Assembly: GCF_020923435.1 (NCBI RefSeq)
Contig: NZ_CP087263.1
Span: 1,135,970 to 1,199,969, forward strand
Source of the DNA: Brevibacillus humidisoli
GTDB taxonomy: Bacteria > Bacillota > Bacilli > Brevibacillales > Brevibacillaceae
DNA: 64,000 bases
Direction of reading: 5' to 3'
Shown: one piece after another, positions 27,040-51,148 of the stretch
Layout: the number at the start of each line of letters is the position of its first letter
How positions within the stretch are numbered: position 1 is the first letter of the stretch
Translations under genes and position numbers: made by a program
The notes under the pieces: generated by a model
Seen by the model: the letters and a program-made list of their open reading frames with translations, nothing else
What the model was told of the DNA's origin: nothing
The model's database searches: none

Positions 27040-28605
27040 CTATTTTTTTGCCGTATTCGAATCGCCTGCTGCATCGAGTGGTTCCACTGTCATCAGATAG
27101 AACCATTTGCCGTCCGCACTGGTGCCAACCAATTGCGTATAGTGGTGCAGTCCTTCGATGAGCGTCCGCTGTTCTCCCGTATCCGCATCAAACGATTGGA
27201 TGCTGACTGTATGAGGCCGGTTGTCTGTCGACTGCACGAATTGTTTGTAGAGGATGGTGTGCGTTCCGTCCAGCCAGACGCCGTCGTATATCCGCTCTCC
27301 CTCCACAAGCTGTTTGCCTTTGTACAGCCCGGCGTTGGGGTACAACCGGTACAGGCCGTCACTGGAGGAGGAGAATCCGGACCAGTCCTGGGGCTGTACG
27401 GGTGGACTCCAGTCAGTGATCTTTTGCGTCTGCCAGGAATACTGGTAACGTCGTTCTTGATATGTTTCCCCGTCTACGGCGGCAAAATGGACGGAATCAC
27501 CGTCGTCCCAAAAAGCAATGCCGATCTCCGCATCGTCCAGTGCACTGCGTGGCTCTTCTCCTTTGATCGCATTCGGCAACCGAAGGACGTTTTGCGTCTT
27601 CAGATCGTAAATCAGCAGATCGAAATCTTTTCTTTGTTCTTTTGCTCCGACAGCCATGATCAGGTGGGAGTGGTCCCGGCTGAAGTTGGCACCGTGCACA
27701 TAACCGTCTACCTGTACATTCACTGTCGTGTCACTGGTTGGTACCGTGACATCAGCAGTTGACTTGGCGTAAAAGAAGCCGCGTGTATCGGCTGTGAACG
27801 TTCCTTCGCCCAGATAGTGGGTTTGCAGCGGAATCGGATAGGGAATCAGCTCGTTCTGCTCCGTGTCGTACAGAGCATACAACCGCTCCAGTCGTGCGTC
27901 ACACTCGCAGTACTCTTTATATCGGCTCAGCAGCAGGTAACGTTTATCGGGACCGATAAACGAAGCAGTGGGATAAGAAAGATCAAAAGCACGAAGTTGG
28001 ATCTTTTCCTCTCCGTCTGTTGACACCTTCCACAGTTGAGAAGGGGTGTAGACAACAGCCACTAGAGAAGGCGGTTCCTGCAGTACGGTTCCGCTTTTCG
28101 TAATCGCTCCATTTACACTGAGCAGATAGGAGCGAGAGCCAATGTCAGGTTCTGCTGCTTTGGGGATCTCTACGGTTAGCCGCAATTGACGATCCGAGGC
28201 CCACTGATACGCAAATGTCGGGATCAGTGGATGGAAGTGTTCTGCCGCCTGCCGCTTGAGTGCGTCCTCCACAGACGAACGATCCATCGGTTCGCGGAAA
28301 AAAAGGAAAAAGTGCTGCGGAGTGTCTGCCACAACGCTCTGAATCGGTGAATGAATCCGGGGATCTTTTTCCCATTGGATCAGGACGGGCTCTTTCATCG
28401 CGGCGTAGTCAAACGGAATCTGTGCCAATGGTTCGGATCCCGAGGACGACAAGTTGATTGGGTCACCTGATGCAGCGGATGGGGCTGAGTTGGGATCAGG
28501 TCCGGTCTGGGATGGTGGAGGTGAAGTATCAGATGTTGAGAGTGAGCAGGCCGTCAGTAATGCCACAACAGGCAGAATCAGGAATAAAAGTCGTTGTCTC
28601 ATCAT
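27040..28605 (-). CDS. Large predicted lipoprotein with beta-propeller-like repeats
   Basis: Secreted, lipid-anchored protein of about 521 residues. A signal peptide with lipobox (VVALLTAC) is followed by a Ser/Pro-rich linker to about residue 60. Then comes an SbsA-like Ig segment (FLFFREPMDRSSVEDALKRQ) typical of bacterial Ig-like domains. The rest has repeated WD40-like or TolB-like blades (YLLLSRYKEYCECDARLERL, HLIMAVGAKEQRKDFDLLIY, YRLYPNAGLYKG). ATG 28605 (or the adjacent ATG) is chosen because GAAGGAAGG precedes it and the signal peptide then starts MMRQRLL. Function unknown; a surface sensing or scaffolding role is plausible. It is alone between recG and the TRAP cluster. Confidence 0.72.
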   Translation of the reverse strand: MMRQRLLFLILPVVALLTACSLSTSDTSPPPSQTGPDPNSAPSAASGDPINLSSSGSEPLAQIPFDYAAMKEPVLIQWEKDPRIHSPIQSVVADTPQHFFLFFREPMDRSSVEDALKRQAAEHFHPLIPTFAYQWASDRQLRLTVEIPKAAEPDIGSRSYLLSVNGAITKSGTVLQEPPSLVAVVYTPSQLWKVSTDGEEKIQLRAFDLSYPTASFIGPDKRYLLLSRYKEYCECDARLERLYALYDTEQNELIPYPIPLQTHYLGEGTFTADTRGFFYAKSTADVTVPTSDTTVNVQVDGYVHGANFSRDHSHLIMAVGAKEQRKDFDLLIYDLKTQNVLRLPNAIKGEEPRSALDDAEIGIAFWDDGDSVHFAAVDGETYQERRYQYSWQTQKITDWSPPVQPQDWSGFSSSSDGLYRLYPNAGLYKGKQLVEGERIYDGVWLDGTHTILYKQFVQSTDNRPHTVSIQSFDADTGEQRTLIEGLHHYTQLVGTSADGKWFYLMTVEPLDAAGDSNTAKK

Positions 28606-28833
28606 CGCCCTTCCTTCTTGTCGTATTTGCTCCATATCCGTTATACGATGTTGTGCGGCGCTTCGTTTCACGTGCAGGGACGGTTGTCGGGTGTCCAGGC
28701 AGCGTATTTTATGTCGTGCTCCCAGTATGCAGTCGGCCGATGAAACATTCGCAATAGAAGGGTAGTTGCCAATCTGCCGTTTATTATGAATGTTCTGAAA
28801 TTATCCTTGACCTTAGTATTATGTATGTAGTAC

Positions 28834-28845
28834 TGTGTATACATA
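28834..28845. promoter_or_regulatory. GTATAC-centred operator candidate 1
   Basis: TGTGTATACATA, five of six positions palindromic, overlapping the -10 of the possible promoter at 28807. This core is typical of FadR-type (FCD) GntR operators. The regulator is not in the window. Confidence 0.45.
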
Positions 28846-28978
28846 AAGAGAGGGGTCATTCCTGATCCGCAAGGGCTTCAAGAGAATCTGCGATCACCGA
28901 AGAAGGAAATGGAGACCGTTTGCAGGAGGGTGCTGCCCATGGCCCTGCCCTACGCAACTCTCTTTTTTTCACATCGTA

Positions 28979-28992
28979 TTGTGTATACACAA
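28979..28992. promoter_or_regulatory. GTATAC-centred operator candidate 2
   Basis: TTGTGTATACACAA is a perfect 14-base palindrome sharing TGTGTATACA with the site at 28834. Two copies in one intergenic region ahead of a catabolic operon suggest a repressor dimer pair. Confidence 0.55.
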
Positions 28993-29253: not shown

Positions 29254-29928
29254 ATGCAGCTTTTTACTTGGGATGCGACAATCCGCTGGTCTCCACAAAG
29301 GCTCGTTATCGCTGGCTATACGGCAAAAGACCAAGCGGCGGTGAAGCAGCACATTGATGAGTTGCGAGAACTAGGCGTGCCTGCTCCCAGGCGGGTTCCG
29401 ATGATCTACGACGTATCGCCTGAACTGCTGCAAACCGCAGAGGAGATTACGGTTGTTCGAAACGACAGCAGCGGCGAGGCAGAAGCTGTTCTGTTGGACG
29501 TTGATGGCAGATGGTACATAGGTCTTGGCAGTGACCATACCGATCGGGTTCTAGAGGCGGTCTCGATCCAAAAATCGAAGCAGGCCTGCGGCAAGCCGAT
29601 TGCCAAAGAAGTGTGGCTGCTTGATTCGATCAGTGATCGTTGGGACGAGATAGAGATGCGAAGTTGGGTAACAGTGGACGGCGAGGAACGGTTGTATCAA
29701 TCCGGAAAGCTAGGGGCCTTCCTCAACCCGGATGAGCTGCTCGCAATCGTCCGGGAGCGAGGTTATGCAGCTCCGGGCATCGCTCTATTCTGTGGTACGC
29801 TGCCGCTGGTAGAGGGACAGTTCCAGTTCGGCGAATCCTTCCGTGCTGAACTGCTTGACGAGCGGAACAATCGCTCCATCCAGCTTTCTTATCAGATCAA
29901 ACACTTAAAAGATGCGGAGCAAGATTAG
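29254..29928 (+). CDS. DUF2848 family protein
   Basis: A 224-residue protein of the DUF2848 family, which is distantly related to fumarylacetoacetate-hydrolase-like enzymes. Visible family segments are AGYTAKDQAAVKQHIDELRELGVPAPRRVPMIYDVSP, best cited as its two halves around ELGVPAP, plus the Asp-His-Thr-Asp patch IGLGSDHTDR, a likely metal or substrate site, and GIALFCGTLPL. It begins a cluster with a TRAP transporter and UbiD/UbiX, so it may process the imported acid or its decarboxylated product. The catalytic activity is not known. The start ATG 29254 has GTAGGTG upstream. Confidence 0.75.
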   Translation: MQLFTWDATIRWSPQRLVIAGYTAKDQAAVKQHIDELRELGVPAPRRVPMIYDVSPELLQTAEEITVVRNDSSGEAEAVLLDVDGRWYIGLGSDHTDRVLEAVSIQKSKQACGKPIAKEVWLLDSISDRWDEIEMRSWVTVDGEERLYQSGKLGAFLNPDELLAIVRERGYAAPGIALFCGTLPLVEGQFQFGESFRAELLDERNNRSIQLSYQIKHLKDAEQD

Positions 29929-30049
29929 CCAGGTCGGCGGTGCAGGATAGCACGTCGCGCATCTTTACAGGTTGGATCCATGAACGGGCATCGAACCGTT
30001 CCGAGAAAGAAGAACGACTCTTCATTTTTGTCACAAGGGGGCAATCAAC

Positions 30050-31114
30050 ATGAAACAGAACATCACTTACCGCTGGATGGTATGGGCGTCACTTCTCCTT
30101 TGCTTTGTATGGATAGCGGCTGGTTGCGGCAGCCCAGCTTCCGATGCCGGGGGCTCGCCTTCGACCGGACAACCCGCTGACAATGGTGGACCGATCCACC
30201 TAAAAGTGGCGTCCAATAACACACAAACCTCCTGGTACATGTTTACCGCAGCGTTGGCTGAAGTGCTGAAAAACAATGGTTCCAATATCAACTTGGAAGT
30301 TCTGCCATTTGCTGGTGGTATCGGGAACATTGAATTGGTGGCGCAAAAAGAAGCCGATTTTGCGGTCAGCTTTAACATTGCCAACAAGTGGGCAAGCGAT
30401 GGTGTGGTCGCATACGACAAGAAGTATCCTGACATCCGCGCATTGGTTGGTGGGATCAACCAGTATTACGTTGGCATTATCGCCAGGACCGACTTTTTAA
30501 AGGAACATGGAATCGACTCGATCGCAGACATCAAAGAAAAGAAGATCCCTGTGCGTATCATCACCAATCCAGTCGGTTCGCTGGCGGAGTACAACACCAG
30601 AATGGTTCTGGATGCATACGGATTGGACTACGACACCGTCAAGAGTTTTGGCGGTTCTGTCGAACTCACCTCCAACGATGTGATCAAAACGGCATTCCAA
30701 AACGGAACGGCCGACCTGCACGTGCTGGCGATGAGCAAGGCACATCCGGTGATTACGGAGATCGCCTTGCAGACAGACATTGCGGTGATGGGAATTGAGG
30801 ATGAGGTCCGCGAGTGGTTTAAACAGTACGGCTATAAGAACATCGGATTCCCCGGCGGGCAGTTTAAAGGGCAGGAACAGGAAGTCGATACGGTCGGCTT
30901 TGTCGTAAGCTACATCACGCATAAAGATATGGACGAAGAACTGGTCTATCAGCTCACGAAAGCGGTGAACGAGAACAAGGAGGCGCTGGTGAACGGGCAT
31001 AAATCAGTAAACGATTTTGATCCGCAGGAAGCGGCCAACCCGGAGTTGCTCGGCGTCCCGCTGCACCCTGGCGCAGAGCGTTACTACCGTGAAGCAGGCA
31101 TCCTGAAAGAATGA
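30050..31114 (+). CDS. TAXI-family TRAP transporter substrate-binding lipoprotein
   Basis: Extracytoplasmic receptor that hands a carboxylate to the TRAP permease. 354 residues: signal peptide and lipobox (VWIAAGC, Cys at about residue 25), a short low-complexity linker, then the TAXI domain with LKVASNNTQTSWYMFTAALAE and GGIGNIELVAQKEADFAVSFNI. Lipid anchoring is expected for a Gram-positive receptor. A site AAGGGGG precedes ATG 30050. The permease is the next gene. The ligand is unknown, but neighbouring UbiD/UbiX point to an aromatic or unsaturated acid. Confidence 0.9.
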   Translation: MKQNITYRWMVWASLLLCFVWIAAGCGSPASDAGGSPSTGQPADNGGPIHLKVASNNTQTSWYMFTAALAEVLKNNGSNINLEVLPFAGGIGNIELVAQKEADFAVSFNIANKWASDGVVAYDKKYPDIRALVGGINQYYVGIIARTDFLKEHGIDSIADIKEKKIPVRIITNPVGSLAEYNTRMVLDAYGLDYDTVKSFGGSVELTSNDVIKTAFQNGTADLHVLAMSKAHPVITEIALQTDIAVMGIEDEVREWFKQYGYKNIGFPGGQFKGQEQEVDTVGFVVSYITHKDMDEELVYQLTKAVNENKEALVNGHKSVNDFDPQEAANPELLGVPLHPGAERYYREAGILKE

Positions 31115-31219
31115 CCAAACGAATCGTTTGCGTCCTGTCCGGGCGGGCAGGACGCAAACGTTCGACATGATGTGCTCCACTCTGAAAGACATCCCATGTT
31201 TTGGCCGGGAGGCGAAATA

Positions 31220-33106
31220 ATGGCTAGAAAATACTTGCGATGGGTACCGCTGGTTGCGATCATATGGGCTTTATTCCAATTGTACCTTGCAGCGGTCGGT
31301 CCCTTGACAGCCCAGCTGCAACGCTCCATTCACGTCGCCTTCGCACTTGCTCTAACATTTCTGCTAGTGCGGCGAGGAGAGAATGCGAAAAACGGGTTGG
31401 TTCGACAACTCGACTATCTGTTTGCCTTGGTTTCTATAGCATCTGGCCTATACATCTACTTTGAAGCGGACAGACTTGTCTCCCGCATTCAGTTCGTCAG
31501 CGAACTAACGGCGATGGACTATGCCGTCTGCATTTCGATCACGCTGCTGATCCTAGAAGCATCCCGGCGTACAGTGGGAAAAGCGATGACCATTTTAGCG
31601 GTATTTTTTCTCTTTTACGCGTTTGCAGGGGCGTATTTCCCCGGACCATTAGCGCATACGGGTATTTCCCTCAAGCGGATGGTTGAGATCATGTATTTCT
31701 CGTTAGAAGGAATCCTGGGCGTTCCGATCGGTGTGTCGGTTGATTACGTCTTTTACTTCGTCTTGTTTGCCGCGTTTCTGGACCGATCGGGCGGGGGGAA
31801 ACTGTTCATCGATCTTGCCTTCAAAATGACGAAACGGTCGAAAGGAGGGCCTGCCAAAGCGGCGATTCTCGGCAGCGGCGGTATGGGCACGATCAGCGGC
31901 AGTGCGATCGGCAACGTCGTCAGTACAGGGGTATTCACGATTCCTCTGATGAAGCGGGCTGGCTACACACCAACCTTTGCGGCATCCATTGAAGCGCTTG
32001 CCTCCACAGGGGGACAAATCCTGCCGCCGATTATGGGGGCGGCCGCCTTCATCATGGCCGATACGGTTGGCATCCCGTATGTGGATGTTGCTCTGGCGGC
32101 GCTTATCCCTGCCGTCCTGTACTTTGTGTCGCTTTACGTGATGGTACATCTGGAAGCAGGCAAAAAAAATCTGCAAGCTAGTCCGGACAACACAAGCGAT
32201 AAAGCGGCTGAGCAGACAAAGGAAAAGCTGCTAGGCCGCCTTCATTTGCTGCTGCCGTTGGCTATCCTGATCATCCTGATTTTCTCCGGAAAAACCCTGC
32301 AGTTGTCAGCCTTCTGGTCGATCGTGACGATCGTGGCGGTCAGTTTTTTGAGAAAGGCGACACGGATGAGTGTGACAGACATTTTGGACGCACTGGTCGA
32401 TGGCGCTAAACAGGCGATCCAGGTAGCTATCCCGTGTGCCGTGGCTGGCATCGTCGTGGGTGTGATCATTCATTCCGGACTGGGCTTGAAGTTCAGCAGC
32501 ATGATTGTGAACTACTCGTTCGGCATACCGCTGCTTTCCGTTCTGCTGGTTTGTCTGGGATGCATCATACTTGGCATGGGGATGCCAACCACCTCTGCCT
32601 ATATCATGGGCGCGGTCTTGCTCGCTCCTTCCCTGCAAAGTCTCGGGTTTGAGCCCATCGCAAGCCACCTGTTCATCCTGTATCTCGCGTGCTTGTCGAT
32701 GGTGACGCCTCCTGTTGCGTTGGCAGCCTACAGCGCGGCAAGCATCGCCCAATGTGATGCCAATCGCACCGGTTACCTCGCCTTTTTCTTGTGCATACCC
32801 GGATTTTTGATTCCGCTCTCTTTTGTGTTCAATCCAGCCCTGGTTCTGGTGGGAGATCCACTGGAGATCATCTGGATGACAATCAAGACACTGTTGGGTC
32901 TTATCGCCATGTCCGGCGCAATCATCGGCTTCTTATTGGTTAAGGTCGAGATGCTGCAGCGAGTACTGTTGGCGGCGACAGGGCTGGCCATGATCGTGCG
33001 CGGCCAGATAACCGATATCATCGGGATTCTGCTCTTTATCGTCCTGCTTGCTTTCCTATGGAAAGAGAAGAAAAAGGGAGAGCGGATTGCCGTTGAGTCT
33101 TTATAG
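31220..33106 (+). CDS. Fused TRAP transporter permease (4TM/12TM, DctQM type)
   Basis: Single polypeptide combining the small and large TRAP membrane subunits, as is normal for TAXI systems. 628 residues with about 16 hydrophobic spans. Large-subunit signatures include SGSAIGNVVSTGVFTIPLMK, ASTGGQILPPIMGAAAFIMA and GMGMPTTSAYIMGA. ATG 31220 is chosen because GGGAGGCG lies seven to nine bases upstream; an upstream in-frame extension has none. Sodium-driven uptake is expected from the family. Confidence 0.92.
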   Translation: MARKYLRWVPLVAIIWALFQLYLAAVGPLTAQLQRSIHVAFALALTFLLVRRGENAKNGLVRQLDYLFALVSIASGLYIYFEADRLVSRIQFVSELTAMDYAVCISITLLILEASRRTVGKAMTILAVFFLFYAFAGAYFPGPLAHTGISLKRMVEIMYFSLEGILGVPIGVSVDYVFYFVLFAAFLDRSGGGKLFIDLAFKMTKRSKGGPAKAAILGSGGMGTISGSAIGNVVSTGVFTIPLMKRAGYTPTFAASIEALASTGGQILPPIMGAAAFIMADTVGIPYVDVALAALIPAVLYFVSLYVMVHLEAGKKNLQASPDNTSDKAAEQTKEKLLGRLHLLLPLAILIILIFSGKTLQLSAFWSIVTIVAVSFLRKATRMSVTDILDALVDGAKQAIQVAIPCAVAGIVVGVIIHSGLGLKFSSMIVNYSFGIPLLSVLLVCLGCIILGMGMPTTSAYIMGAVLLAPSLQSLGFEPIASHLFILYLACLSMVTPPVALAAYSAASIAQCDANRTGYLAFFLCIPGFLIPLSFVFNPALVLVGDPLEIIWMTIKTLLGLIAMSGAIIGFLLVKVEMLQRVLLAATGLAMIVRGQITDIIGILLFIVLLAFLWKEKKKGERIAVESL

Positions 33107-33163
33107 TCACGGGAAGTTTTCGATTAGCGTCAAAGCTTTTCTCTCAAAGACAGAGGAATAGGA

Positions 33164-34570
33164 ATGGAGGCGTTTTTCTTGTCGGCACCTTTTCAATCTC
33201 TTCGCGCATGGCTGCGTTATTTGCATAACAAAGAGGAATTGGCTGTTGTGACCAAACCGGTTTCCACCCGATATGAGATCGCAGCGTATACCAAGCATCT
33301 TGACGGCAGCAGACCGGTGTATTTCCCTGATGTAGATGGGTACACCATACCTGTCGTCTCCGGCATCGCCAGTACACGTCAACATTTTGCGGAAGCGCTG
33401 GGCTGTCGGACGGATGAGATGATCGACAAGTTTTTGCATGCCATCGATCATCCGATCCCGTCTGAGATGGTGAAAAGTGAAGCAGCGCCTGTTCAGCAAC
33501 ACGTGGTAACCGAGGATATCGACTTGATGAAGATGTTCCCCATCTGTCTGCATCAGGAGAAGGATTCCGGTCCCTACATCACTGCAGGATTAGCGATCGT
33601 CCGGGACCCGGAAACAGGGAAACAAAACGTGTCCATTCATCGTTTGCAGGTGTCCGGCAAAAACCGGTTGGGTGCGCTGATTCTGCCTCGTCACACATTT
33701 GCTGCCTTTAAAAAAATGGAGGAGAAAGGGGAGCCGCTCGAGATTGCCATTGTGTTGGGAGTGGACCCGATATTGATGCTGGCGTCCCAGGCGATCGCGC
33801 CGCTCGGCCAGGACGAATTGGAGATCGCGGGCGGGCTGCGAGGGGAAGCCGTTCCCGTCGTGCGCTGCAAGACGGTCAACATCGATGTGCCGGCTTATGC
33901 CGAGATTGTATTGGAAGGCAAGATCCTTCCCCACGTTCGCGAACCGGAAGGCCCGTTTGGCGAGTTTCCCGCCTATTACGGACCGAAAAGCAACAAAGAA
34001 GTGATCGAGATTCACTGTGTCACCCATCGGGAGAAACCGATCTATCAAGCTTGCCTGGCTGGCTCGGATGAAAACTTGCTGCTGGGAGCCATTCCGCGTG
34101 AGGCCAGCCTGCTTCGTGCGCTGCGCAACACAGTTCCTACTGTTCGCAACGTACATCTGACGATGGGCGGCAAATGCAGGTTCCATCTGGTGGTCTCCAT
34201 GAAAAAGAGAAATGAAGGGGAAGCGAAAAATGTGATTTTCGCTGCTTTTGCCGGCCATTATGATGTGAAAAAAGTAATCGTGGTCGATGAAGAGATCGAT
34301 ATTTTTGACATGGATCAGGTGGAATGGTGTGTGGCGACTCGCTTTCAGGCGGAACGAGACCTGGTCGTGGTCCACGGTGCGCTTGGTTCCAAACTGGATC
34401 CCTCGGCCGATGACGGGGTAAGCTCCAAACTGGGATTTGATTGTACGGTTCCGCTAGGTGCCGAGCCAGAGGATTATGAAGTGACGCGGATCCCCAGTAT
34501 GGAGGGGTACCACTTCGACCAACATATTGAGAGTCGGCTCGCAGACGATCGCAGCTTCTCTGAGGATTGA
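33164..34570 (+). CDS. UbiD family (prenylated-FMN) decarboxylase
   Basis: Reversible decarboxylase of aromatic or alpha,beta-unsaturated acids using prenylated FMN made by UbiX. 468 residues. Cofactor and active-site segments are visible: VSIHRLQVSGKNRLGA near 165 and REPEGPFGEFPAYYG near 265 with both conserved Glu residues, so it should be active. ATG 33164 is weakly supported. TTG 33179, eight bases after GGAGG, is an equally good start and gives MSAPFQSLRAW. The gene for UbiX follows directly, and a TRAP importer precedes, so the imported acid is the likely substrate. Confidence 0.9.
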   Translation: MEAFFLSAPFQSLRAWLRYLHNKEELAVVTKPVSTRYEIAAYTKHLDGSRPVYFPDVDGYTIPVVSGIASTRQHFAEALGCRTDEMIDKFLHAIDHPIPSEMVKSEAAPVQQHVVTEDIDLMKMFPICLHQEKDSGPYITAGLAIVRDPETGKQNVSIHRLQVSGKNRLGALILPRHTFAAFKKMEEKGEPLEIAIVLGVDPILMLASQAIAPLGQDELEIAGGLRGEAVPVVRCKTVNIDVPAYAEIVLEGKILPHVREPEGPFGEFPAYYGPKSNKEVIEIHCVTHREKPIYQACLAGSDENLLLGAIPREASLLRALRNTVPTVRNVHLTMGGKCRFHLVVSMKKRNEGEAKNVIFAAFAGHYDVKKVIVVDEEIDIFDMDQVEWCVATRFQAERDLVVVHGALGSKLDPSADDGVSSKLGFDCTVPLGAEPEDYEVTRIPSMEGYHFDQHIESRLADDRSFSED

Positions 34571-34582
34571 CAGGTGGACCAG

Positions 34583-35146
34583 ATGGACAAAAAAATCATC
34601 GTTGGCATTACGGGCGGTTCCGGCGCGATTTATGGGGTTCGTCTACTGGAAGCACTTAACGAAGCAGGTGTAGAGACTCATCTGATCATCAGCGAGTGGG
34701 GGGAGAAGACGATCCAGATGGAAACATCGTATACCCTGCCGGAAGTAAAGAAGATGGCTGCGGTTTCGTACAGTGTAAAAAATCAGGCCGCTGCCATCTC
34801 GTCCGGGTCGTTTCGGGTAGATGGGATGGTCATCGCCCCTTGCAGTATGAAAACCCTGGCAGGGATAGCAACCGGGCTCGCTTCCGATCTGATTGCGCGA
34901 GCGGCTGATGTGATGCTCAAAGAGCGTAAGAAGTTGATCCTGCTCACACGTGAGTCACCACTCAATCTCGTCCACGTCAGAAACATGGAAACGGTCATAC
35001 TGGCCGGGGCCATGGTTTTCCCGCCCGTGCCCGCCTTTTACAACCAGCCGAAATCAATTGACGATATCGTCAACCATACAGTGGGCAGGGTGTTGGACCA
35101 GTTGGATTTAGACCCTGATTGGGTAAATAGATGGGGCAAGCAGTAA
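34583..35146 (+). CDS. ubiX: UbiX family flavin prenyltransferase
   Basis: Joins a dimethylallyl group to FMN to make the cofactor for UbiD. 187 residues with the flavin-binding GITGGSGAIYGVRLLEAL start, the FRVDGMVIAPCSMKTLAGIATGL core and LILLTRESPLNLVHVRNM. ATG 34583 is preferred over GTG 34574 because AGGTGG overlaps the earlier codon. Pairing with UbiD is the standard arrangement and supports a functional decarboxylase. Confidence 0.93.
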   Translation: MDKKIIVGITGGSGAIYGVRLLEALNEAGVETHLIISEWGEKTIQMETSYTLPEVKKMAAVSYSVKNQAAAISSGSFRVDGMVIAPCSMKTLAGIATGLASDLIARAADVMLKERKKLILLTRESPLNLVHVRNMETVILAGAMVFPPVPAFYNQPKSIDDIVNHTVGRVLDQLDLDPDWVNRWGKQ

Positions 35147-35191: not shown

Positions 35192-35217
35192 AAGCGGCTG
35201 AACACACCTCAGCCGCT
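35192..35217. terminator. Hairpin between ubiX and the glycosylase gene
   Basis: AGCGGCTGA (35192-35200) pairs with TCAGCCGCT (35209-35217). Convergent genes end on both sides. The T-run is weak on both strands, so termination efficiency is uncertain. Confidence 0.6.
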
Positions 35218-36344: not shown

Positions 36345-37025
36345 GCGCAGGCAGCCAGTAAGAAGATTGAGGCCATTTTGCCGCATTCGCTGCGCCAGCG
36401 GGTACAGCACCTGAGAGACAGTATGCGCTTTCTCGCGCTTGATCCGAGCTATCATCGCAAGCAGCAGAACAAGCAGCAGGAGGAGCAGCTGCAAATGATC
36501 AGGAGGGCGGTATTGGAGAGCTCCCGACTGGAACTTCACTATCAGAAGCGGCAGCGGCTGGATCGCATTCCGCCTATCGAGCCGCGTCGGGTTGACCCCT
36601 ACGGCATGGTCAACGTACACGGGGCCTTGTACTTGATCGGCTACTGCCACCTGAGAAAAGGCGTAAGACAGTTTCGGCTCGATCGCATTCGCCGTCTGGA
36701 TGTACTGCCGGAGAGGTTCCGCCGTCCGGAGGAGTTTTCCATTCAGCAGTATCAGCCGGAGCAAAACCGCAATCTGATCGTTCGCGTACAGTTTCCTGCC
36801 GCGATGGCCGCTTACGTTCGGGAATCGCGCCCGTTTTTTTGGGAAACCGAGAAAGAGACGGAGCAGGGACTGGAGGTGACGCTGCGCGTACGCGATGAGG
36901 ATGAAGTACTCTCCTGGATTCTCAGTTGGGGAGGGCAGGCGCTGGTGCTGGAGCCATCTTCCCTGCGGCATAAAATCTATGAGCAAGCCCGCCATATGAT
37001 CGCCCGCTATGATCCGGAAGGGTAA
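36345..37025 (+). pseudogene. N-terminally truncated WYL-domain transcription regulator
   Basis: The WYL effector domain and C-terminal part are present (KIEAILPHSLRQRV, VDPYGMVNVHGALYLIGYC, FRLDRIRRLDVL, LRHKIYEQARHMI), about 225 residues. The ~100-residue helix-turn-helix half is missing and an in-frame TAG at 36336-36338 lies just before the homology begins. No ribosome-binding site suits the TTG at 36378. It cannot bind DNA as a normal WYL repressor would. The junction with the VOC remnant is at about 36345. Confidence 0.78.
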
Positions 37026-51002: not shown

Positions 51003-51148
51003 CAGCGACCCACCTCCTTCCACAAGTATGGTATCCTGTGCGAAATAAATTATGCCAACTCCCATCATCAGAGATTGGCATGCATGAATTTGCTACTGTT
51101 TACAAACCATACAATTACCAAATCATCTCTGCTAAAGGACGGTTACCT

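Follow-up and report, generated by a model that had tools for sequence, protein, structure and literature searches.

The closest described counterparts of the operon analyzed here are the HmfF/HmfG pairs of Cupriavidus basilensis and P. thermopropionicum (PDB 6h6v), with which it shares the UbiD clade, a UbiX partner, a pair of active-site Arg residues, and a diacid logic. According to extracts of PMC7976604, the furan specificity of HmfF is set by its His residue, and Asn318 of HudA (PA0254), a pyrrole-2-carboxylate (P2C) decarboxylase, contacts the ring nitrogen in an imidazole complex, with Glu316 holding this Asn. HudA differs in belonging to another UbiD branch, which clusters with the Fdc1 clades, and in turning a monoacid into pyrrole. 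PtHmfF is reported to tolerate P2C (excerpt of PMC8252502), and P2C monooxygenase (EC 1.14.13.130) is placed in group D together with HpaB-type enzymes (excerpt of PMC6165268). The metal and catalytic residues of FAHD1, from the FAH superfamily, are given as H30-E33, E71-R106, D102, and K123 in an excerpt of PMC8398924. A literature search on DUF2848 returned nothing, and none of the titles listed by searches on P2C names the genes described below. A search for pyrrole-2,5-dicarboxylic acid also returned nothing, in a term form that may miss the comma form.

Gene content of the operon

The window is the whole stretch of 64,000 nucleotides of the Brevibacillus humidisoli genome that was analyzed. 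Five of its genes resemble the first section of a pathway not yet described, in which a nitrogen-ring diacid would be imported and lose one carboxyl before the product goes to a second gene cluster for conversion to a central metabolite. Coordinates, strand, and profile scores bore out the five same-strand genes and the identities that the initial annotation had given them, the gene starts being mechanical open reading frame (ORF) calls.

29254..29928, + strand: DUF2848 protein (PF11010, E 1.8e-70, 237 bits), a distant FAH-superfamily candidate
30050..31114, + strand: TAXI-type TRAP solute-binding lipoprotein (TIGR02122, 149.6 bits, cut-off 84.35; PF16868; lipobox AAGC in the sequence)
31172..33106, + strand: fused TRAP permease (TIGR02123, 645.7, cut-off 320.65; PF06808)
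33164..34570, + strand: HmfF-clade UbiD decarboxylase, D302-N304-R312-R339 (TIGR00148, 386.4, cut-off 244.85)
34574..35146, + strand: UbiX flavin prenyltransferase (TIGR00421, 256.9 bits, cut-off 108.9)
35193..35217, + strand: terminator-like hairpin after the operon (consensus match only)

The intergenic gaps were, in gene order, 121, 57, 57, and 3 bp, the gene for the UbiX partner starting 3 bp downstream of that for UbiD. The TAXI-TRAP pair comprised a receptor with a lipoprotein signal and a fused permease, both scoring above the model cut-offs. Terminator-like matches as a class were not clearly above shuffles (10 found versus a mean of 6.8). The TAXI-TRAP-UbiD-UbiX set recurred in two Paenibacillus genomes, and DUF2848 recurred together with the same UbiD subtype, defined below as Asn type, in genome G788, indicating that the gene set is more than a chance assembly.

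Active site of the decarboxylase

Profile searches identified PF20695, PF01977, and PF20696 domains in the window UbiD. Its closest solved relative was HmfF (6h6v; phmmer E 1e-149), and in the tree the enzyme was nested inside the HmfF His-type clade with a support of 1.0. Alignment revealed that the furan-selecting His of HmfF is replaced by Asn304, whereas R312 and R339 are kept. Positions 302 and 304 are occupied by Asp and Asn in the window enzyme versus Tyr and His in most His-type relatives. Asn was found at this position in 3 of the 34 aligned UbiDs, namely those of the window and of the two Paenibacillus genomes, and in no others; a fourth Asn-type UbiD was found later, beyond that alignment, so that the subtype is known here from 4 genomes only. 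The motif formed by an acidic residue, any residue, and Asn is shared with HudA, in which it faces the ring nitrogen (extracts of PMC7976604). Since PtHmfF tolerates P2C, the difference between His and Asn would be one of preference rather than a switch. Asn304, held by Asp302, would accept the ring N-H, and the two conserved Arg residues would bind carboxylate, which we take to be their role in HmfF.

The diacid imported by the TAXI-TRAP transporter would have a five-membered N-heteroaromatic ring and would most likely be pyrrole-2,5-dicarboxylate; UbiX would make prenyl-FMN, and UbiD would take off one carboxylate to give P2C. The substrate, left by the initial annotation as an unidentified aromatic or unsaturated acid, is narrowed to a likely pyrrole-type N-heteroaromatic diacid. 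The solved TAXI receptors nearest to the window receptor include a GluR0-like core, and another ligand is therefore possible.

A second locus and shared operator-like palindromes

Beyond the features of the initial annotation, operator-like palindromes were observed at two positions (about 28834 and 28980), as was a related locus ~0.71 Mb away in the same genome. The order of genes in this second locus (locus 2) is GntR-HpaC-HpaB-amidase-DUF2848-cupin-TRAP.

28833..28846, no strand: operator-like palindrome W1 (CTGTGTATACATAA), identical at 20 of 21 bases to the site that precedes the GntR gene of locus 2
28979..28992, no strand: operator-like palindrome W2 (TTGTGTATACACAA), identical at 23 of 24 bases to the site between the locus-2 HpaC and HpaB genes

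Five exact palindrome sites, including W1 and W2, were present in the 4.9-Mb genome, versus about 0.1 expected from the base composition of the window, and four of the five were located upstream of genes of the window operon and locus 2. The fifth (4848776), which overlaps predicted ORFs (L192) with no labelled pathway genes beside it, was taken as chance. One-mismatch sites occurred elsewhere in the genome, including 4842877, 3141986, 2196644, and 1213234; no gene labelled as HpaB, DUF2848, amidase, or UbiD was found around the first three of these. Also at one mismatch, operator-like sites were present in four non-HpaB loci (the window, L082, L084, and L085). Both observations weigh against the proposal. 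The window operon and locus 2 are apparently co-regulated, and one GntR regulator would bind the sites and control both loci.

The locus-2 oxygenase HpaB satisfied models PF11794 and PF03241. Its 150-residue HpaC partner passed one model only (NF005232, named "hypothetical protein"), and a relative of this protein in L083 matched PNPOx_N below the cut-off. The combination of an HpaB-type oxygenase and a small, putative flavin reductase would resemble P2C monooxygenase in enzyme type; such a pair also occurred in an Arthrobacter plasmid and in several DUF2848 loci of Bacilli. The HpaB/HpaC pair would hydroxylate P2C at C5. Locus 2 has its own TRAP transporter, DctPQM, which could already import the substrate, and this counts against the proposal.

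Genes for HpaB, the cupin, the Nit2-like amidase, and DUF2848 are present in each of the four genomes in which an Asn-type UbiD was found (neighbor counts were obtained with tblastn). G788 has most of the set in 13 kb, with HpaB, cupin, amidase, DUF2848, and UbiD in one gene run, as deduced from plus-strand ORFs; it retains a pair of aldehyde and iron alcohol dehydrogenases that also accompanies several His-type UbiDs. In Paenibacillus, both UbiD loci are devoid of DUF2848 but contain relatives of the cupin and HpaB of the DUF2848 locus. The initial proposal that a (hetero)aromatic acid is taken up and decarboxylated with prenyl-FMN, DUF2848 acting on what follows, is consistent with these comparisons. 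Its description of the cluster as self-contained does not hold, the hydroxylase pair, the amidase, and GntR being encoded in locus 2, which has the operator-like sites in common with the operon.

DUF2848 and the putative lower pathway

The initial annotation had named a rarity of DUF2848 beside UbiD elsewhere as something that would refute its proposal. Of 36 DUF2848 loci from the phylum of the window, 1 had an adjoining UbiD, and of 10 named plasmid loci none did, which, taken literally, is such a rarity. The usual partner was an amidase, closest to Nit2 (34/36 loci). HpaB was absent from 27 of the 36 loci, and the chemistry of DUF2848 must therefore be broader than P2C. As an explanation, we offer that DUF2848 and the Nit2-like amidase are part of a broader lower pathway to which the UbiD unit is an add-on.

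DUF2848 matched the FAH profile weakly (hhalign E 4.9e-4, probability 32%; E values of 0.049 to 0.64 for five control families). Residues H33, E36, E75, E77, D94, and R98 were each invariant in 46/46 sequences, and the H-xx-E, E-x-E, and D-xxx-R motifs occur in the same order as in FAHD1, the correspondence being one of order and spacing, not structure, between different families. A single-sequence AlphaFold2 model of DUF2848 had a pLDDT of 46 and a pTM of 0.36, too poor to be of use. As a metal-dependent, FAH-like enzyme, DUF2848 would hydrate or open the lactam tautomer of the hydroxypyrrole to give 2-oxoglutaramate, perhaps with the help of the cupin, and the Nit2-like amidase would convert 2-oxoglutaramate to 2-oxoglutarate and NH3.

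We lean toward regarding the operon as the entry step of a regulon for pyrrole-acid catabolism, in which P2C would be converted to 2-oxoglutarate and NH3 via locus 2. An ordinary HmfF system, importing furan-2,5-dicarboxylate and supplying 2-furoate to a furoyl-CoA pathway, would agree with the identity of the closest solved relative, with the conservation of both Arg residues, and with the TAXI-TRAP genes flanking a His-type UbiD with furoate genes in L148; these TAXI-TRAP genes, as evidence of a 2,5-diacid receptor, fit the favored reading too. We nevertheless regard it as improbable, since among the 34 aligned UbiDs the replacement of His by Asn is confined to this subclade and since the HpaB-DUF2848 locus has the same operator-like sites, common to a GntR locus, and the same partners (HpaB, cupin, DUF2848, and amidase instead of furoyl-CoA enzymes). 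Genes of the furoate pathway, encoding a Mo hydroxylase, an AMP ligase, or both, were present in 6 of 7 labelled His-type loci versus 0 of 4 Asn-type loci. No match to either gene was found anywhere in the window, and its only ECH and ALDH matches were distant (29% and 33%) and far from the operon. The genome has a single PF20256 match. It is 30% like the reference, a large subunit of furoyl-CoA dehydrogenase, with no labelled AMP-ligase or ECH gene adjoining it.

The same regulon and logic could serve another N-heteroaromatic acid (a substituted pyrrole, imidazole, or similar) and an omega-amide other than 2-oxoglutaramate, since the regulon, the amidase, and the nitrogen-selecting residue suit any NH-containing five-ring acid; the locus of a sister Glu-type UbiD has purine-degradation-like genes. 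This alternative is unlikely, though it deserves serious attention: both Arg residues of the diacid site are kept, and a C5 2-oxoacid product would suit the 2-oxoacid:ferredoxin oxidoreductase genes, of putative 2-oxoglutarate specificity, near some DUF2848 genes. That of locus L028, with relatives in L026 and L031, scored above the cut-off of the general 2-oxoacid model alone, the 2-oxoglutarate-specific models being below theirs. Finally, it is very improbable that DUF2848 joined the UbiD operon by chance and that the two loci are unrelated. The single adjoining pair among 36 loci and the two Paenibacillus UbiD loci devoid of DUF2848 speak for this reading; the operator-like sites common to both loci, the cupin and HpaB relatives in those Paenibacillus loci, and the single gene run of G788 speak against it.

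The pyrrole-acid regulon may tentatively be extended, at somewhat less than an even chance, to a nitrogen version of the entire hydroxymethylfurfural pathway under one GntR operator. Pyrroles bearing hydroxymethyl or formyl groups, for example Maillard products of sugars and amines, would be oxidized to pyrrole-2,5-dicarboxylate, decarboxylated by the Asn-type HmfF, and hydroxylated by the HpaB-type enzyme, so that the P2C monooxygenase of the Rhodococcus type would gain a sequence. DUF2848 would then act as a FAH-fold lactam hydratase or hydrolase, followed by deamidation to 2-oxoglutarate. If correct, the proposal would offer a candidate gene set for P2C catabolism, a natural enzyme in which Asn takes the place of the furan-selecting His of HmfF, and a testable role for DUF2848, a family of unknown function occurring in several phyla. 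For the enzymatic fixation of CO2 onto heteroaromatics, too, the Asn-type decarboxylase would be of interest.

A candidate HpaB remnant upstream of DUF2848 (tblastn E 1.4e-5) was rejected as a pseudogene; the match is operator-like DNA and is spurious because the start of the reference HpaB was over-extended into its own operator-like site. A scan of viral contigs revealed no DUF2848 relatives. Plasmid matches to DUF2848 spanned, by organism name, Pseudomonadota, Actinomycetota, Bacillota, and one archaeon.

Operator-like sites in the window and at a second locus

Gene calls in the window bore out the five genes on a single strand reported by the initial annotation. All five products scored above the Pfam and NCBIfam cut-offs, and the intergenic gaps, based on mechanical starts, were 121, 57, 57, and 3 bp. 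The operon and its surroundings comprise the following features.

27040-28671: divergent gene of no Pfam family, with a lipobox-like motif (LTAC) close to the start
28834 and 28980: palindromes W1 and W2
29254-35146, single strand: genes for DUF2848, TAXI receptor, fused TRAP permease, UbiD, and UbiX
35193: terminator-like hairpin after the operon (10 such matches in the region versus a shuffle mean of 6.8)
36378-37025: WYL-WCX protein with no helix-turn-helix match in Pfam, perhaps a truncated regulator

At up to two mismatches, TGTGTATACACA had two matches in the 64 kb, W1 and W2, both upstream of DUF2848. The Brevibacillus humidisoli genome, a single contig of 4.9 Mb, contained five distinct exact sites for YTGTGTATACAYAA (two in a second DUF2848 locus, two before the window DUF2848, and one elsewhere), with about 0.1 expected from the window base composition. 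Allowing one mismatch gave nine distinct sites in the genome, four belonging to the two loci. The reversed-pattern control gave 1 match at this threshold versus 12 rows for the real pattern, in which a palindromic site can count as two rows. W1 is identical in 20/21 bases to the site preceding the GntR gene of the second locus, and W2 in 23/24 bases to the HpaC/HpaB intergenic site of that locus. We infer that these sites are bound by GntR. The intergenic region carrying W1 and W2 is common to both sides, and the divergent gene could be under the same control.

The second locus, at about 450 kb, has the order GntR-HpaC-HpaB-CN hydrolase-DUF2848-cupin-DctPQM, and its DUF2848 is 75% identical to the window copy. 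The HpaC label is weak: its only NCBIfam match is to a model titled "hypothetical protein," and for a relative (L083) the PNPOx_N match falls below the cut-off. HpaB scored under the 4-HPA equivalog cut-offs (373.5 versus 480.2 and 332.7 versus 885.2); because a separate HpaB of this genome lies near FAH- and ALDH-like genes (L190), the second-locus HpaB probably has a different substrate. The amidase passed no NCBIfam cut-off and is nearest Nit2 (2w1v, E 4e-42), an omega-amidase acting on 2-oxoglutaramate. It is very probable that the window operon is part of this HpaB-DUF2848-amidase system.

DUF2848 and its neighbors

DUF2848 was found in 12 of 398 genomes sampled across the phylum and in 22 of 398 across the class, B. 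humidisoli belonging to both samples. We examined 36 loci, comprising those of these genomes, with both B. humidisoli copies, plus two Paenibacillus loci. Within 8 kb, tblastn detected CN hydrolase (34 loci), GntR (30), TRAP (20), cupin (14), and HpaB (9); given the size of the GntR, TRAP, and CN hydrolase families, these labels hold at family level. Cupin was present in all nine HpaB loci and in five without HpaB. UbiD occurred in the window only (1/36) and in none of 10 named plasmid loci, hand-picked from 56 records, which contained HpaB (3), amidase-signature genes (6), and CN hydrolase (3). By count, this goes against the association of DUF2848 with UbiD drawn by the initial annotation; the explanation offered for the scarcity of the pairing is a modular arrangement. 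At up to one mismatch, operator-like sites were present in 9/9 HpaB-DUF2848 loci, in 4/27 loci without HpaB (the window, L082, L084, and L085), and in none of the 10 named plasmid loci or 14 H-type UbiD loci.

The Thioclava order is flavin reductase-HpaB-cupin-amidase-DUF2848; Caballeronia has the same order, but a transporter gene separates amidase from DUF2848, and in an Arthrobacter plasmid DUF2848 adjoins HpaB. In loci L026, L028, and L031, a PreA-like protein accompanies cupin, CN hydrolase, and DUF2848; these loci also carry a 2-oxoacid:ferredoxin oxidoreductase, which in L028 sits outside the 8-kb count. The alpha subunit of the L028 enzyme passed the general 2-oxoacid model, the 2-oxoglutarate-specific models remaining below cut-off. 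A Mo hydroxylase is present in L028 and L032. Two Rhodobacterales plasmid loci (L112 and L113) combine DUF2848 with TRAP and a "putative hydro-lyase," L112 also with hydantoinase/oxoprolinase, a setting that looks like lactam chemistry.

Residues invariant across 46 DUF2848 sequences include H33, E36, E75, E77, D94, D97, R98, E101, K109, Q149, and T182. The ExE signature presumably has FAHD1 E73 as a counterpart. The HxxE, ExE, and DxxxR signatures of DUF2848 match FAHD1 residues named in PMC8398924 (H30-E33, E71, R106, Q109, D102, and K123). The DUF2848 profile matched 30 FAH proteins with an E value of 4.9e-4, collinear over 176 columns, versus 0.049 to 0.64 for five neighbor families; because the nominal probability is just 32%, kinship to the FAH superfamily is a lead only.

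UbiD subclades and the predicted substrate

The best solved relative of the window UbiD was 6h6v/6h6x (E 1e-149), 6H6V being named as HmfF in PMC8988006. Window N304, R312, and R339 align pairwise with H296, R304, and R331 of that chain. Both arginines, which we take to be part of the diacid site, were invariant in all 34 aligned UbiDs (the window, 4 loci from genome contigs, and 29 further matched places with locus sequence; 13/43 places of one search, having no locus, were left out). The HmfF variant H296N reportedly shifts towards pyrroles. According to PMC7976604, the HmfF residue matching N318 of the pyrrole-2-carboxylate decarboxylase HudA (H297 in that paper) is key to furan specificity; N318 itself bonds E316 and is close enough to the imidazole nitrogen for a hydrogen bond. 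An all-or-none reading of the His/Asn difference is weakened because wild-type PtHmfF tolerates pyrrole-2-carboxylate, as stated in a review (PMC8252502).

At position 304, 22 of the 34 sequences have H, 9 have E, and 3 have N; position 302 is D in N-type and mostly Y in H-type UbiDs. In a tree including six named plasmid UbiDs, the N-type sequences form a clade (support 1.0) nested inside the H-type clade, joining L115-L117 (support 1.0 for the group of six formed by the N-type sequences and L115-L117). A search of 394 genomes of one family (that of G219) gave one UbiD match at E <= 1e-130, in G788, with residues D-N-R-R.

Furoate-pathway Mo-hydroxylase and/or AMP-ligase genes occur in 6/7 labelled H-type loci (L147-L152 and L141), neither being present in the stretch covered for L150; several also contain iron alcohol dehydrogenase, aldehyde dehydrogenase, and R2-like oxidase genes, and in L148 TAXI and fused TRAP genes adjoin UbiD. 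No Mo-hydroxylase or AMP-ligase match was found in the four N-type loci, and the only ECH (29%, at 1111) and ALDH (33%, at 51143) matches in the 64-kb window are distant. Paenibacillus loci L005 and L006 have the order GntR-cupin-TAXI-TRAP-UbiD-UbiX-HpaB. G788 carries on one strand (L196) GntR-HpaB-cupin-UbiD-(HpaC-like plus HpaB in one frame)-CN hydrolase-DUF2848-ALDH-iron ADH-DctPQM, a run without TAXI or UbiX. Near sites number two in L196 and one in L006, L005 having the core octamer only.

The substrate is likely an N-heteroaromatic; whether it would be pyrrole-2,5-dicarboxylate specifically is an even call, and we are equally divided on DUF2848 catalyzing the step from a hydroxypyrrole to 2-oxoglutaramate. 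Counted against this pathway are the occurrence of N-type UbiD in only four of the genomes searched here, the lack of HpaB at most DUF2848 loci (27/36), and the GluR0-like core among the closest solved relatives of the TAXI receptor. The G788 dehydrogenase pair suggests, by analogy with the HMF route, that the diacid derives from hydroxymethyl or formyl precursors; Maillard pyrroles as its natural source are speculation.

In L196:11410-13302, the HpaC-like flavin reductase and HpaB-type oxygenase appear to share one open frame with a start that is not fixed. The reductase part has no Pfam match, and the product is possibly a self-sufficient fused monooxygenase.

Bacilli loci L153, L154, and L155 belong to the E-type sister clade, in which Glu occupies the furan-selecting position. 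In L154, the one locus of the three searched with Pfam, UbiD is accompanied by genes for a BMC shell protein, a xanthine/uracil-type permease, several amidohydrolases (adenine-deaminase-like and others), and isochorismatase-like and cyclase proteins. L154 looks like a purine-degrading microcompartment, perhaps including an imidazole-carboxylate decarboxylase.
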